Virus record (IMG/VR): IMGVR_UViG_3300042896_000278
Coordinates: 1 to 42,517 of that record
Source of the DNA: a virus
Strand: one strand, 5' to 3'
Length of the DNA stretch: 42,517 nucleotides
Position 1 is the first letter of the stretch. Each line of letters starts with the position of its first letter. The translations under genes were made by a program, and so were the position numbers. The notes under the pieces were generated by a model, which was not told the DNA's origin, did no database searches, and saw only the letters and a list, made by a program, of their open reading frames with translations. Below are positions 37,183 through 42,517 of the stretch, piece after piece.

Positions 37183-37197
37183 TATTTATAATAGATG
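37183..37197 (+). promoter_or_regulatory. Candidate late promoter (TATTTAT box), leaderless spacing
   Basis: AAATATTTATAATAGATG: 5 nt separate TATTTAT from the ATG of the HAD gene (37195). A transcript start 6-7 nt after the box would fall on or inside the start codon. Confidence 0.5.
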
Positions 37198-37725
37198 ATA
37201 CGATTACTTGATTTATTAGAAGATGCCGGAAGAACGATACATATATACGATTTCGATGATACATTGGTAGATACGAATACTAGTATAAATGTAATAGATT
37301 CTGAAGGCAACTTGAAAAAGTTGTCTAGTGGCGAATTTGCTACATATACTTTAAAACCCGGAGAAAAATATGATTTTACTGAGTTTGATAAGATAATAAA
37401 AGATTCAAAACCCATACTTCGTAATCTTTTACAGATAAAAAAGTCGGCATCTAATCCTAATATTAAAACCACTATATTAACTGCTAGAAGAGTGGCATAT
37501 CCTATAATGCGCCATTTAAAAGAAAAATATAAATTAGACGTATACGTGGTTGGGGTAGGCGGAGCAAATCCAGAATTAAAAGCAGATTGGATAGAAAATC
37601 AAGTAAAAAAAGGTTATAAAAATATTAAATTCATGGATGACTCTGAAAAAAATTTACTAGCAGTTAAGAATAGATTATCTAAATACGAAGGATTAAATTT
37701 AGATTTAATCGATGCTAAAAAATAA
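37195..37725 (+). CDS. HAD-superfamily phosphatase-like protein with leader
   Basis: 176 aa. It has all four HAD motifs: IYDFDDTLVDT (residues about 17-27; nucleophile Asp and general acid Asp), ILTARR (motif II Thr), KADWIE (motif III Lys, about 131-136), and FMDDSEKN (motif IV, about 148-155). It is probably an active Mg-dependent phosphatase on a small phosphoester; the substrate is unknown (polynucleotide 3'-phosphatase and nucleotidase are options). The first 12 residues (MIRLLDLLE|DAG) resemble the (I/L)xE targeting leaders, leaving the fold start intact if cut. It lies between the sheath and tube genes, where HAD enzymes are not expected in T4. Confidence 0.85.
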   Translation: MIRLLDLLEDAGRTIHIYDFDDTLVDTNTSINVIDSEGNLKKLSSGEFATYTLKPGEKYDFTEFDKIIKDSKPILRNLLQIKKSASNPNIKTTILTARRVAYPIMRHLKEKYKLDVYVVGVGGANPELKADWIENQVKKGYKNIKFMDDSEKNLLAVKNRLSKYEGLNLDLIDAKK

Positions 37726-37756: not shown

Positions 37757-37789
37757 TAAATTATTTAAACTATTTAAATCAATAAAAAT

Positions 37790-38278
37790 ATGGCAACATT
37801 AATTCCAGATTCCGATATATTCTTTACCAGTTTCGAACCCAAGGTACAGAATAGATTCATCATGTATATGAATGGGTTACCTTCTTATATTATTAAGAAA
37901 ATTAACCGTCCGCAAATTGATTTCGGTGATATTGATATGCATCATATCAACGTAATTAGAAAACTTAAAGGTAAAGCAAATTGGGGAGATTTCTCAATGA
38001 CGCTTTATGATCCGATTGTACCTTCCGGTGCTCAAGCAGTAATGGAATGGATTAGAACTTCTCACGAATCAATTACCGGTCGTGATGGATACGCTGATTT
38101 CTATAAAAGAGACTTGCAATTTGAAGTATTAGGACCTGTAGGTGATATCGTAGAAGAATGGTTACTTAAAGGAGCTTATATCAAATCTGCACAGTTTGGA
38201 GATATGGATTGGGCATCTGACCAACCTGTAGAAATTTCCGTTACAATGCGTATTGATTATGCTGTGCTTAATTTTTAA
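37790..38278 (+). CDS. gp19: Tail tube protein (gp19-like)
   Basis: 162 aa, almost the T4 gp19 length (163 aa). It polymerises into the inner tail tube on the tape-measure scaffold. Diagnostic segments are FFTSFEPKVQNRFIMYMNGL, PSYIIKKINRPQIDFGDIDM, KGKANWGDFSMTLYDPIVPS, GRDGYADFYKRDLQFEVLGP and EEWLLKGAYIKSAQFGDMDW. It has a single tube domain without extra insertions. The A-rich leader (AATCAATAAAAAT) lacks Shine-Dalgarno. It is followed 6 nt later by an 84-aa gene in the same unit. Confidence 0.96.
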   Translation: MATLIPDSDIFFTSFEPKVQNRFIMYMNGLPSYIIKKINRPQIDFGDIDMHHINVIRKLKGKANWGDFSMTLYDPIVPSGAQAVMEWIRTSHESITGRDGYADFYKRDLQFEVLGPVGDIVEEWLLKGAYIKSAQFGDMDWASDQPVEISVTMRIDYAVLNF

Positions 38279-38284
38279 TAAACC

Positions 38285-38539
38285 ATGAAAACCGCGGAAG
38301 AAATTACACGAGAACAATTAGCATTCGCTCCTGATGTATTTAAAGGATATTCAAATCCTTTTAATGCTAGAGTACCTAATGAAATTAATAAAAACATTAG
38401 GCAGGATTATAATGCTCGTATGATATCATTTGCAAAAGATATAAATAAAGATATTCCTGATGTAGTACAGTCTCCGCAGAGAAGTACTCAAGGCTCAGGA
38501 CCTATTGAAGGTACTAGTATGTCAGTTACTGTTGGGTGA
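38285..38539 (+). CDS. Small tail-region protein, unknown
   Basis: 84 aa, function not recognised. It begins MKTAEEITREQLAFAPDVFK, followed by NPFNARVPNEINKNIRQDYN, a polar helix, and a Gly/Ser-rich end (RSTQGSGPIEGTSMSVTVG) that looks disordered. It uses TGA, the only one among the genes accepted here. It is cotranscribed with the tube gene and followed by a strong terminator. It may be a small baseplate or tail-initiation partner; no evidence beyond place. Confidence 0.6.
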   Translation: MKTAEEITREQLAFAPDVFKGYSNPFNARVPNEINKNIRQDYNARMISFAKDINKDIPDVVQSPQRSTQGSGPIEGTSMSVTVG

Positions 38540-38561
38540 TTTTAGTTCTTTTCTTTCAGTT

Positions 38562-38590
38562 AGCCCTCCGGAAACGGGGGGCTTTTTTAT
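38562..38590 (+). terminator. Rho-independent terminator
   Basis: A 9-bp GC-rich stem AGCCCTCCG/CGGGGGGCT (38562-38570 with 38575-38583, one T-G pair) has a GAAA tetraloop and TTTTTT. Confidence 0.93.
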
Positions 38591-38594
38591 TTTA

Positions 38595-38611
38595 GGTATA
38601 TATATTAATAA
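38595..38611 (+). promoter_or_regulatory. Variant of the late promoter box
   Basis: GGTATATATATTAATAAAT keeps the flank and downstream TAATA of other boxes but has TATATAT instead of TATTTAT. It is 24 nt before the ATG at 38635. Confidence 0.4.
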
Positions 38612-38634
38612 ATTAAAATCAAATATTTAAAGTT

Positions 38635-39519
38635 ATGACAACAGTTTCAGACTCTTATCCTAAAAACCAATCTTTATCAGACGACGAATTAAAAGAAGTA
38701 TTAAAGGCTAAATATTCTGCCGGTAACACTAAAACTGAATTCGAGAATCCTGATGACACTTCTAAATTTCATACTGAGGTAGTACATTTACCGTCTAAAG
38801 GGTTGTTATACCCCGAAAGTAACCCGTTAAGCTCGGGACAGATTCATATGAAATATATGACTGCTAAAGAAGAAGACATTCTTACATCGCAGAATTTGAT
38901 TAAATCTGGGGTAGTAATAGATAAGTTATTACAGTCATTAATCGTATCTAAAATTAATTACAATGATTTATTGGTAGGCGATAAAAATGCTCTTTTAGTT
39001 GCTGCTAGGATTTTAGCTTATGGTAAAGATTATGAAGTAGAAATTACATGTCCCAAATGCGGAGAAAAATCTACACATGTAGTTGATTTATCTACTTTTG
39101 AAGATAAAGAACCTAAAGAAGGTACGTATACTAAAGGTGCTAATGAATTTTGGTTTGAATTGCCGGCATCTAAAAGAAAAGTATCTTTTAAATGTTTAAC
39201 TTCAGCAGATGAAAAAGGAATTGAAGCTGAATTAAAAGGTCTTAAAAAGTTAACTAAAATTACTGGTATTGATTCTGAAATGACTACTCGTTTAAAGTAT
39301 TTAATTACTTCAGTAGATGGTGAATCCGATATTACTGTTATTAGAAAGTTTGTAGATACGGAATTGCTTTCTAGAGATTCTTTTGCTTTGCGTAAGTATA
39401 TACAAGATGTAAGTCCGGATATTAAAATGGAATTCATGTTTGAATGTCCGAGTTGTGGTCACGAAGTATTAGACATGGCTATGCCCATGACGGTGTCCTT
39501 TTTTTGGCCTAGGGCCTAA
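38635..39519 (+). CDS. gp26: gp26/T4_baseplate-family protein; predicted tail-assembly chaperone (short form)
   Basis: 294 aa in zero frame. Family-like features are EVVHLPSKGLLYP, MKYMTAKEEDILTSQNLIKS, LVGDKNALLVAARILAYGKD and two Cys pairs, CPKCG (139-143) and CPSCG (271-275), likely binding one zinc. The end, AMPMTVSFFWPRA, carries the FFWP ending I recall in relatives. T4 gp26 is 208 aa and is described as a baseplate hub component. FFW is encoded by a seven-T run followed by a perfect hairpin, and a slip there would extend the protein into the next ORF (39554). Position between tube and tape measure equals lambda gpG. Confidence 0.85.
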   Translation: MTTVSDSYPKNQSLSDDELKEVLKAKYSAGNTKTEFENPDDTSKFHTEVVHLPSKGLLYPESNPLSSGQIHMKYMTAKEEDILTSQNLIKSGVVIDKLLQSLIVSKINYNDLLVGDKNALLVAARILAYGKDYEVEITCPKCGEKSTHVVDLSTFEDKEPKEGTYTKGANEFWFELPASKRKVSFKCLTSADEKGIEAELKGLKKLTKITGIDSEMTTRLKYLITSVDGESDITVIRKFVDTELLSRDSFALRKYIQDVSPDIKMEFMFECPSCGHEVLDMAMPMTVSFFWPRA

Positions 39520-39530
39520 TTATAGGCCCT
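39499..39530 (+). other. Candidate programmed ribosomal frameshift site
   Basis: Seven T (39499-39505) lie in zero frame as TTT TTT TGG. After a 5-nt spacer comes a perfect 8-bp hairpin AGGGCCTA-ATTA-TAGGCCCT (39511-39530) covering the zero-frame stop (39517-39519). In the +1/-2 frame the reading is open from 39491 (a stop lies at 39488) through G-L-G-P-N-Y into the ORF at 39554. A -1 slip reaches TAG within two codons. No T-run follows the hairpin, so it is not a + strand terminator. The fused product would be about 371 aa. Confidence 0.6.
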
Positions 39531-39553
39531 TTCGGAATAGCCAAATATTCGAT

Positions 39554-39751
39554 ATGATATATTATGGCCATGGCGGATTTACATTCGGTGATTTGTATAC
39601 GATGCCAGTTTATCTACGAAATTTCTATTATAGAAAAATGGTAGATGTAAAAGAAAAAGAAAAGGAAGCTGCTGAACAAGCCAATAAACAACCAGCTCCC
39701 AGCAGTAAAAAAATACATAGGCCGGGAGTAACTAGAACTCCTAGTAGATAA
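39554..39751 (+). CDS. Downstream frame of tail-chaperone pair (GT-like extension)
   Basis: 65 aa from ATG 39554, but the frame is open from 39491. The ATG has no convincing ribosome-binding context. MIYYGHGGFTFGDLYTMPVY continuing LRNFYYRKM is a motif set I recall as a small protein always next to the gp26-like gene. The rest is a Lys/Glu helix and a basic Pro/Arg end (KKIHRPGVTRTPSR). Its position after a slippery site, with a terminator just behind, makes it most likely the C-terminal part of a frameshifted chaperone; separate initiation is the alternative. Confidence 0.75.
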   Translation: MIYYGHGGFTFGDLYTMPVYLRNFYYRKMVDVKEKEKEAAEQANKQPAPSSKKIHRPGVTRTPSR

Positions 39752-39775
39752 TGGGTCTTCGGACCCATTTTTCTT
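39750..39775 (+). terminator. Rho-independent terminator with TTCG loop
   Basis: An 8-bp perfect stem AATGGGTC/GACCCATT (39750-39757 with 39762-39769) has a TTCG tetraloop and a T-run. It overlaps the stop codon of the ORF at 39554, so both frames of the chaperone end here. Confidence 0.93.
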
Positions 39776-39779
39776 TTAT

Positions 39780-39796
39780 GAAATAATTATAATAAA
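39780..39796 (+). promoter_or_regulatory. Variant of the late promoter box
   Basis: GAAATAATTATAATAAACC lies 10-12 nt before the ATG at 39805, in the place where the box is found for other genes. Confidence 0.35.
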
Positions 39797-39804
39797 CCAT
39801 TGAT

Positions 39805-40071
39805 ATGAAAGATACAGATAAATTACGTCTACTTATACGAGAAGAAATTAAAAAAGAAATTAATGAAGGCGCAGCAGGTGCTATCATAGGATATTTAGCA
39901 GGCGTATTGGCTGATTTATTTTTAAAAAATAAAAACGGTAAATCAACTAAAAAATCCGCGGAAACTTTAGAAAAAGAATATGCAGAAAGATTAGAAAAAA
40001 AATATCAATCAGATCCTAAATTTAGAGAAATGGTAGATGCAATACAAGCAGGTAGAAGATATAAAGTATAA
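39805..40071 (+). CDS. Small protein: targeting-like leader plus Gly/Ala hydrophobic segment
   Basis: 88 aa. The leader (KDTDKLRLLIREEIKKEINE) ends with INE|G, a perfect T4-type prohead cleavage motif. Immediately afterwards comes GAAGAIIGYLAGVLADLFL (about residues 22-40), a glycine-zipper-like hydrophobic segment. A charged helix follows (SAETLEKEYAERLEKKYQSD). It directly precedes the tape-measure gene, 21 nt away. After processing, the new N-terminus would be a Gly/Ala-rich membrane-active-looking segment. The function is unknown; virion-internal or membrane-inserting roles are inference. Confidence 0.7.
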   Translation: MKDTDKLRLLIREEIKKEINEGAAGAIIGYLAGVLADLFLKNKNGKSTKKSAETLEKEYAERLEKKYQSDPKFREMVDAIQAGRRYKV

Positions 40072-40092
40072 ACTGGGTTTATAGTATTTAAA

Positions 40093-42517
40093 ATGGATAG
40101 AACTCGGGAATTAACTAAGAAATTAGAAGAGGCAAAACAAGAAGTTAACAGGCTTAATACGCTTCTTGGTGTAACGGGAGATGTAACTAGAGATGTTGCT
40201 TTAGGAGTCGCAGATTTAAATACTAGATATTACGATTCTAAAAACAATATTTCGGATATTGTTTCTCTTACATCTGAATTAAAATCTTTAGGTTCTAGTA
40301 TATTTAAATTAAATAGACTTGATTTATCAGTTCTCCAGCAACAAAATGAAAGTACCGAAAATCAAAATAATGCTTTAAACGATGCAGTTGCTAAAATATT
40401 ACAAAAAGTCAAGTTTTCTAATGATGATAAAGATATAACCAACCAAATAAATGAATCATTACTTACTAATAACACGATTCAAAAACTAATTACAAAAGAA
40501 GCGGAAAAGGCGTATACTATTCGAGAACAAGAAAAAGACGCATCTAAAAAAGCTTCCGAATCTTTAAATAATGATATAAACAATTTAGAGAAAGAAATAA
40601 GCATATTAGAAGACCGTAGTAAGTATGAAAACGAAATTAGCAAAAAAAGCGAGATAAATAATGTAATTGCCACTAAAACCGCGGAAATAGAAGAAAAACG
40701 AGCGGAATTAAATAAAATACGAGATTTATATACTAAGAGCGAATTGGATAAAAATGTTTCTATCGCAGATTTAGAAAACGAAATCAAAAAAAGTGTTGAA
40801 AATACTGTTAGTGAGTCAGTTAAAATTGTCAATGAATATTCAAAATATAATGATTTATTAGAGACTATACAAGATTCACAAATCGCTACCGGGGATATTT
40901 TATCCAGAGATGCGGCCGCTCGTGCTAAAATTTCTTTAGAAGAATATAAAACTAAAAATAAATTTGAAGATAAATCTAAAGAATTTATAGATTTAAAATT
41001 CCAAGAATTTAAACTTGGTACGACGATAACTGAACTGGAGAAAGATCGAGGTGTACTTGTTGAAAAACTAAAAAATGCTACTGAAGAAGAGAGCGCGTCT
41101 CTTGAAAAGCAATTAGCTTTTGTTGATAATCTTTTAGGTTCTTCACAACTTCAATTAAATGTTGCTAAAGAAAACGTAATCAATTTAGAAAGAGTAGAAG
41201 AATTAGAAAAGAAAATTTCTGAGGAAAAGAAAAAACAAAATATTGAAGAAGAAGTTAAAAAATCCTTAACCGAAAAAATAACTTCTCTTTTAGGAGACCA
41301 AGGTGAAGAAATATCAAGCATCGGTAAAGCTATTAAAGATTCAATGACTAGTCCATTAGCATTGGTGGGAGCTTTAATAGGCCATGCTTTAGAAGAATAT
41401 ATGAAACTCGGTAGAGAAAGCCGAAAATTTTTAGATGATTCTAAATTAACCGTAAAACAAAGTGAGCATGCATTACATTATGCACACGATTTATCCTTAG
41501 AATATCGTGCCCAGGGTGTAGAAATGTCTGAAGTATTAGAATCTACTAATGCTTTGGTGGGTGTGTACGGGTCAATAAATCGAGTTTCTGACACGGCAGT
41601 TGAAAAAGCTACATTATTAGGAAAAGCATTTGGTATATCTGCAGATAATGCTGCTAAGACGATGTATCAAATACAAGCGTCTACAGGCGCGAGTGCTGAG
41701 ACTGCCGGTAATATAGCCGCTTTAGGTGCTCAATTTGCTGAAGCAGCTGGCGTTGCTCCTGATTTAGTAATGCAAGACATTGCCGGATCGTCTGAACAAA
41801 TAGCCACCTATTTTAAAGGCACTCCTCAAGATTTACTACGAACTGCCGTTGAAGCTAGACGACTAGGTTTAGATATAGGAAAAGTAGCAGATATTTCTAA
41901 AACTCTTTTAGATTTTGAATCTTCTATTGAAGATCAAATGACTGCTTCTGTTTTATTAGGTAGAGAAATTAATTTAGACAAAGCTAGAGAACTTGCTATG
42001 CAAGGAAAAATAGAAGAAGCCGCTAAAGAAACTTTAGGTCAAATAGGAAGTTTGGCAGATTTCAATAAAATGAACGCAGTACAAAAAGAAGCTATTGCTA
42101 AAGCAGCAGGTCTTACTGTTGCTGAATTACAACAATCGTTGGAAAAGCAAGATGCTATCAATAATATGACTGCAGAACAGCGCGCTGAGTATGAAAAGAA
42201 TTTACAACTATTAGGTGAAGGTAATGAATCAGCTGCTGATAGATTATTAAAAGAGCAACGTAATCAATTAACTCAAGAAAAGATAGCAGACGCGGTGTCT
42301 AAGATAGCTGATATATTCGCCAATGTTATTTTACCTGTATTAGATCCGATATTTAGTCTCATATCCGGTATTTTTGGTATGATTGAACCTATATTGCCTT
42401 ATTTAAAGACCGGGTTACAACTTTTCTTAGGATGGAAAGCAGTAACTTTCTTAATAAATACACAATTCTTTAAGACTCGAGGATTGTTAGGCACTTTATT
42501 TGCCCCTATTCAAGCAG
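40093..42517 (+). CDS. Tape-measure protein, 3' end outside window
   Basis: At least 808 codons are visible, open to the window end. It sets tail length and is released into the cell envelope at ejection. The start MDRTRELTKKLEEAKQEVNR is 21 nt after the previous stop. Residues about 1-410 are almost continuous coiled coil (for example NNDINNLEKEISILEDRSKY). Residues about 415-690 form an Ala/Gly-rich helical region with GKAFGISADNAAKTMYQIQA, typical of tape-measure cores. Near residues 735-800, IADIFANVILPVLDPIFSLI and GIFGMIEPILPYLKTGLQLF are hydrophobic, membrane-compatible segments, as expected. Confidence 0.92.
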   Translation, partial: MDRTRELTKKLEEAKQEVNRLNTLLGVTGDVTRDVALGVADLNTRYYDSKNNISDIVSLTSELKSLGSSIFKLNRLDLSVLQQQNESTENQNNALNDAVAKILQKVKFSNDDKDITNQINESLLTNNTIQKLITKEAEKAYTIREQEKDASKKASESLNNDINNLEKEISILEDRSKYENEISKKSEINNVIATKTAEIEEKRAELNKIRDLYTKSELDKNVSIADLENEIKKSVENTVSESVKIVNEYSKYNDLLETIQDSQIATGDILSRDAAARAKISLEEYKTKNKFEDKSKEFIDLKFQEFKLGTTITELEKDRGVLVEKLKNATEEESASLEKQLAFVDNLLGSSQLQLNVAKENVINLERVEELEKKISEEKKKQNIEEEVKKSLTEKITSLLGDQGEEISSIGKAIKDSMTSPLALVGALIGHALEEYMKLGRESRKFLDDSKLTVKQSEHALHYAHDLSLEYRAQGVEMSEVLESTNALVGVYGSINRVSDTAVEKATLLGKAFGISADNAAKTMYQIQASTGASAETAGNIAALGAQFAEAAGVAPDLVMQDIAGSSEQIATYFKGTPQDLLRTAVEARRLGLDIGKVADISKTLLDFESSIEDQMTASVLLGREINLDKARELAMQGKIEEAAKETLGQIGSLADFNKMNAVQKEAIAKAAGLTVAELQQSLEKQDAINNMTAEQRAEYEKNLQLLGEGNESAADRLLKEQRNQLTQEKIADAVSKIADIFANVILPVLDPIFSLISGIFGMIEPILPYLKTGLQLFLGWKAVTFLINTQFFKTRGLLGTLFAPIQA

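Follow-up and report, generated by a model that had tools for sequence, protein, structure and literature searches.

Comparative evidence for a programmed frameshift joining a gp26-like gene to the next reading frame in a T4-like phage lineage

We analysed a 42,517-nucleotide stretch of viral DNA (the window; IMG/VR record IMGVR_UViG_3300042896_000278), in which a gp26-like gene lies between a tail tube gene and a probable tape measure gene. A run of seven T, a stem-loop and a second open frame overlap the 3′ end of the gp26-like gene. The features of the locus are the following:

37790–38278, + strand: upstream neighbour, a tail tube gene (matches phrog_4542, tail tube protein, at E 1.9e-24).
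38635–39519, + strand: gp26-like short form (TAC-N), 294 aa (PF12322, phrog_150, AlphaFold2 model, structural matches).
39491–39751, + strand: +1/−2 frame, open from before the slip site to the TAC-C stop (direct reading; open in 238 of 238 relatives).
39499–39505, + strand: putatively slippery seven-T run in the codons TTT TTT TGG (39499–39507) (direct reading, zero-frame phase, kept in relatives).
39506–39751, + strand: domain TAC-C in the shifted frame, 81 aa beyond the slip (conserved motif, helical fold, codon periodicity).
39511–39530, + strand: stem-loop over the zero-frame stop, GGGCCTA (39512–39518) with TAGGCCC (39523–39529), loop ATTA (covariation).
39554–39751, + strand: ORF from ATG, as bounded in the initial annotation (ATG at codon 16 in 15 of 229 complete relatives).
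40093–42517, + strand: probable tape measure gene, downstream, extending past the window end (position equivalent in immuto and LIS04).

The gp26-like protein belongs to the gp26 family (PF12322, T4_baseplate), which it matches over residues 65–291 at 58.9 bits (E 7.4e-16), above the curated Pfam cut-off of 24.5, and it also matches phrog_150 (E 4.7e-18). For structure prediction the fusion was folded as two separate parts, gp26 and TAC-C. The AlphaFold2 model of the gp26 part (pLDDT 89.8) retrieved gp26-type baseplate hub proteins from many phages in a fold search, the best being that of SP-15 (E 2.1e-20). The same model found no significant match in a PDB fold search, in which the HK97 tail assembly chaperone gp13 (2OB9) came second (E 1.6, probability 0.30).

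Flavobacterium phage immuto has the same order, tube, gp26, TAC-C, tape measure, and Bacillus SP-15, Listeria LIS04 and Microcystis Mel-JY01 have an equivalent one. For the probable tape measure gene, Pfam and PHROG gave no family match, and the gene adjoining TAC-C in immuto and LIS04 is annotated as tail tape measure protein. The initial annotation had located the pair, as in lambda G/GT, between the tube and tape measure genes, a placement supported by the tube match and by the gene order of relatives; two overlapping frames lie between these genes, as at a G/GT-type locus. Nearby, a polynucleotide-kinase/HAD-like gene (37195–37725; phrog_415, E 5.9e-6) separates the sheath and tube genes, and an 88-aa ORF (39805–40071) comes after TAC-C and before the probable tape measure gene, where Mel-JY01 also has a small hypothetical gene. 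The tail genes at 37770–40095 have A-rich leaders without Shine-Dalgarno sequences, as in phages of Bacteroidota, and the closest isolate relatives of the window phage infect Flavobacterium.

The gp26-like ORF ends TCC TTT TTT TGG CCT AGG GCC TAA. Direct reading bore out the seven-T run first noticed in the FFWP codons (39499–39505), the 5-nt spacer after it (39506–39510) and the +1/−2 frame open from 39491 into the ORF at 39554. This frame is preceded by TGA at 39488–39490 and ends at a stop at 39749–39751; read from GGC at 39506, it begins GLGPNYRPFRNSQIFDMIYYGHGGFTFGDLYTMPVYLRNFYYRKM. A long form (TAC-NC) made of gp26 residues 1–290 and TAC-C would have about 371 aa after a +1 shift or 372 aa after a −2 shift. 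Over the zero-frame stop lies a perfect 8-bp hairpin, AGGGCCTA-ATTA-TAGGCCCT, in which 39511–39518 pairs with 39523–39530 and the 5′ arm extends into the TAA at 39517–39519. Terminator-like hairpins with T runs were seen by eye after the neighbouring genes, at 38556–38590 and 39752–39780; the hairpin at 39511 has no T run after it. The sequence TTTTTTTGG occurs twice in the window against 1.45 expected, so the bare T-run is not rare and the question became whether relatives keep it; the run is significant because of the comparative evidence that follows.

Scanning viral contigs with three gp26 queries yielded 240 loci, some contigs appearing under two queries; the SP-15 and RM378 gp26 queries returned only SP-15 and RM378 themselves. 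We kept the loci, those from named phages included, in which the 3′ end of gp26 is complete and carries the conserved Trp codon; in all 238 of them the +1/−2 frame is open across the slip site and the stop. The downstream domain is complete at 229 loci, every one of which reaches a conserved domain of 62–86 codons. Within 180 nt, stops occur in the zero frame at 229 of these 229 loci, in the −1 frame at 215 and in the +1/−2 frame at none. Codon periodicity switches frame in step (159 distinct sequences): variation peaks upstream at the third position of zero-frame codons (1.75 bits) and, after the stop, at the third position of the shifted frame (1.46 versus 1.10 and 0.65). The comparison of relatives that the initial annotation had proposed found the overlapping frame open throughout, the slip site family-wide and the hairpin in one group only, and it confirmed that the observation of slip site and open frame is real and far beyond chance.

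The codons at the slip site are constrained beyond what the protein needs. Slip-site sequences among the 238 relatives are TTTTTTTGGCC (179), TTTCTTTGGCC (51), CTTTTTTGGCC (4), TTTTTCTGGCC (2) and TTTTTTTGGAA (2), in keeping with the suggestion that the T-run might be shared by the family. In raw counts that ignore shared ancestry, the first codon of the pair at 174 distinct loci is TTT 171 times, CTT 3 times and never TTC, and the second is TTT 138 times, CTT 34 times and TTC twice. The TTT:TTC ratios are thus 171:0 and 138:2 at the slip site versus 1314:430 (75% TTT) in the remainder of gp26, where other conserved Phe columns have 57–85% TTT. The initial annotation held that the FFWP motif forces the T-run; this does not stand, since the protein permits TTC, which is almost never used, and a large Phe-Leu-Trp subgroup has TTT CTT TGG. 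There the Leu codon is CTT at 34 of 34 loci versus 137 of 657 (21%) elsewhere. Shine-Dalgarno-like stimulators, sought upstream of the slip site, are present at only 17 of 238 loci. At the level of sequence, selection on both the slip site and the open shifted frame is evident.

The shifted frame encodes a recognizable protein domain. Across 54–56 diverse sequences TAC-C conserves GLxPxYRxxxHxQIFDLxYxGxGGFTxxDVYNMPVxLRxFY, and it is modelled as a small helical domain (pLDDT 84.6). It resembles the shifted domains of the SP-15 group (SP-15, LIS04, GXN1; HHalign E 2.8e-9) and of huge phages (profile comparison, E 3.8e-7) and, weakly, the C-terminus of T4 gp51 (profile comparison, E 0.039). Searches of TAC-C against Pfam and PHROG gave nothing usable and its fold search no match, the fusion profile found no match in a PDB sequence search, and the whole-fusion profile gave no meaningful alignment with T4 gp51.

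The stem has a narrower distribution. In the 76 distinct sequences with the stop 12 nt after TGG, at least 6 of the 7 stem pairs form in 35, and 1 to 5 in the remaining 41. The perfect 8-bp hairpin described initially is present in the window and clade-limited, with a conserved core of 7 pairs to which the window phage adds the outermost A-T pair (39511–39530). For covariation we aligned 40 sequences, 35 with the stem and 5 without, a choice of rows that leans toward the stem; 91.9% of cells pair, and two-sided changes affect 5 of the 7 pairs in 26 cells, giving variants such as GGGCCTA/TAGGCCC, GCCTCTA/TAGAGGC and GGGCTTA/TAAGCCC. The covariation score is 0.377 versus 0.200 for shuffles and at most 0.119 for slid partners; despite the choice of rows, the compensating changes do not follow from it alone. 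We regard the stem as a putative clade-specific stimulator and not a family feature.

Other explanations of the locus were weighed against this evidence. The downstream ORF might be a separate gene, with translation beginning at a start of its own, or reinitiating once gp26 has terminated, and no frameshift; the window has an ATG at 39554, and window genes generally have no Shine-Dalgarno sequence, so its absence here is not counter-evidence. However, only 15 of 229 relatives have ATG at that position, and protein-level conservation in the shifted frame starts right after the slip site, upstream of ATG 39554. At 10 distinct loci, moreover, the shifted ORF has no ATG, GTG or TTG from its 5′ stop through codon 45 after the slip, so the conserved domain there could not start at a common start codon. 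A separate gene would also leave the T-run constraint and the covarying stem unexplained; we consider it improbable, and the ORF at 39554–39751 is probably a fragment of TAC-C. Runs of seven T can promote slippage of RNA polymerase, and with such a run at 179 of 238 sites the fusion could arise in transcription and not on the ribosome. Against this, 51 loci have TTTCTTTGG and further relatives TTCTTTCG or TTTTTTCA, runs too short for this mechanism, and a downstream stem overlapping the stop is what ribosomal frameshift sites typically show; transcriptional slippage too has little chance of being the explanation.

Less credible still is a reading that takes the hairpin for a transcription terminator or an inverted repeat due to chance and regards the T-run as a by-product of the FFW motif in AT-rich DNA. 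The hairpin is indeed G+C-rich and 41 of 76 distinct sequences pair at 5 or fewer of 7 positions, but no U tract follows it, pairing is kept through two-sided changes, and TTC is avoided at the site though it makes up 25% of other Phe codons; we give this reading very little weight. Homopolymer runs are error-prone, and an assembly or sequencing error at the T-run was also considered as the source of the frame break. It is refuted by relatives with an identical break, found in hundreds of independent contigs and in isolate genomes such as SP-15, RM378 and immuto, and we attach practically no probability to it.

Open shifted frames occur in other members of the gp26 family too. The +1/−2 frame is open in immuto (TTT CTT TGG), Mel-JY01 and RM378 (TTT TTT TGG), SP-15 (TTT TTT CAC), LIS04 (TTT TTT AGT), GXN1 (TTC TTT CGT), BRock (CTG TTT CGC) and an uncultured huge phage (TTT CTA TTC). 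At the same gp26 Phe codons the −1 frame is open instead in the huge phages XacN1, Atu_ph07, Pseudomonas 30-3, PHA46 and LR756511 (loci L263, L264, L265, L267 and L088). No GenBank frameshift annotation was present at the loci whose annotation was examined. The shifted-frame domain is unannotated in Streptococcus phage GXN1 (L086, after 3729) and Listeria phage LIS04 (L087, 3703–3932).

The direction of the shift in the main clade is about evenly balanced between +1 and −2, because no single rule fits every site. The sequences TTC TTT C (GXN1) and CTG TTT C (BRock) permit re-pairing only for +1; for TTT TTC T (L061, L062) and TTT TTT A (LIS04), re-pairing is best after −2. If the second tRNA slips once, by −2, the first codon must have T as its third base; this is observed and agrees with TTT TTC TGG. 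If the slip is +1, T must be the last base of the second codon, ahead of TGG; this too is observed, and it agrees with TTC TTT C and CTG TTT C. That both codons are constrained in the main clade would fit a tandem +1 slip or a mixture. We lean slightly towards a history in which the same Phe-Phe pair serves as slip site across the gp26 family and the direction changed in evolution, with −1 in several huge phages (XacN1, Atu_ph07, Pseudomonas 30-3, PHA46), +1/−2 in this clade and the SP-15/RM378 relatives, and the shift replaced in T4 by a duplicated fused gene; a true −2 shift with stem stimulation may apply here.

A programmed frameshift almost certainly joins the gp26-like gene to the next ORF, as initially proposed, given the frame open at all 238 loci and the constraint on the T-run. 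With a slip site that is conserved close to where the short form ends and a second frame open over its stop, the two parts are very likely the TAC-N/TAC-NC (lambda G/GT-type) pair of this T4-like lineage, the chaperone role being suggested by position and homology. As an explanation of the whole locus we strongly favour a gene for a tail assembly chaperone whose short and long forms result from programmed ribosomal frameshifting. Most ribosomes would terminate at 39517–39519 and yield the 294-aa short form; a minority would slip on UUU UUU U, which the stem-loop overlapping the stop would promote in this clade, and would then continue in the +1/−2 frame to add a helical domain of 81 aa. On the model of lambda gpG/gpGT, the tape measure protein would be coated by the short form, and the added domain of the less frequent long form would bring in tube subunits; neither form need be part of the finished particle. 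The shift in cells, its rate and direction, and the chaperone function are what we infer from these comparisons.

The gp26 ‘baseplate hub subunit’ and its ‘hypothetical’ neighbour are thus most likely one gene, which corrects the annotation. A large, mostly uncultured T4-like lineage would make a short and a long chaperone through a frameshift of unusual direction where T4 uses two genes, and the gp26 family would offer a natural series for how frameshift direction changes while the slip site stays.

PF12322, the family that contains the window gp26, is matched along its full model by T4 gp26 as well as by T4 gp51. In gp51 the domain ends at residue 201 and about 48 further C-terminal residues follow, a stretch that fits T4 making the short and long forms from separate genes (26 and 51), whereas the window phage would use one gene and a frameshift; among the selected ORFs scanned in the 42.5-kb window fragment, no second PF12322 gene was met. 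The 2022 abstract of Vladimirov et al. reportedly names genes 26 and 51 as the T4 chaperones, with frameshifting in several other T4-like groups. In long-tailed phages ‘except T4’, G/GT frameshifting is described as widespread, and recorded examples shift by −1, by −2 (Mu) or by +1 (HSTV-2) (PMC5009743). According to passages in two citing papers (PMC12846349, PMC10885494), Vladimirov, Gautam and Davidson (2022; Virology 566:9-15, doi 10.1016/j.virol.2021.11.003) identified the tail assembly chaperones of T4-like phages, which overturns the initial statement that nothing was described for T4-type gp26. By the same kind of passage, some T4-like phages carry a short gene and a longer fused gene in place of frameshifting (PMC10885494), and slippery poly-T signals have already been recognised in the TAC-N genes of T4-like phages, with a −1 shift in contrast to the +1/−2 frame of the window clade (PMC12846349). 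The class of mechanism is, on these citing texts, already known. In the open literature that we searched, where Vladimirov et al. (2022) is represented by citing text, we found no description of the +1/−2 direction in this clade, of a change of direction within the family or of the covarying stem.

The locus shares with lambda gpG/gpGT a short protein and a frameshift-extended one encoded after the tube gene and just before the tape measure gene. Lambda shifts by −1, whereas the window clade has its second domain in the +1/−2 frame, the −1 frame being closed within 180 nt at 215 of 229 loci; sequence similarity is not expected. The tail of phage Mu (−2) and HSTV-2 (+1) show chaperone frameshifting into the same relative frame (PMC5009743), with another protein family and another slip site. 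The Pakpunavirus/Andersonviridae locus has been argued from the same form of comparison and also has a poly-T slip site at the end of TAC-N, but differs in its −1 shift, its GTTTTT motif and its phage families (PMC12846349).
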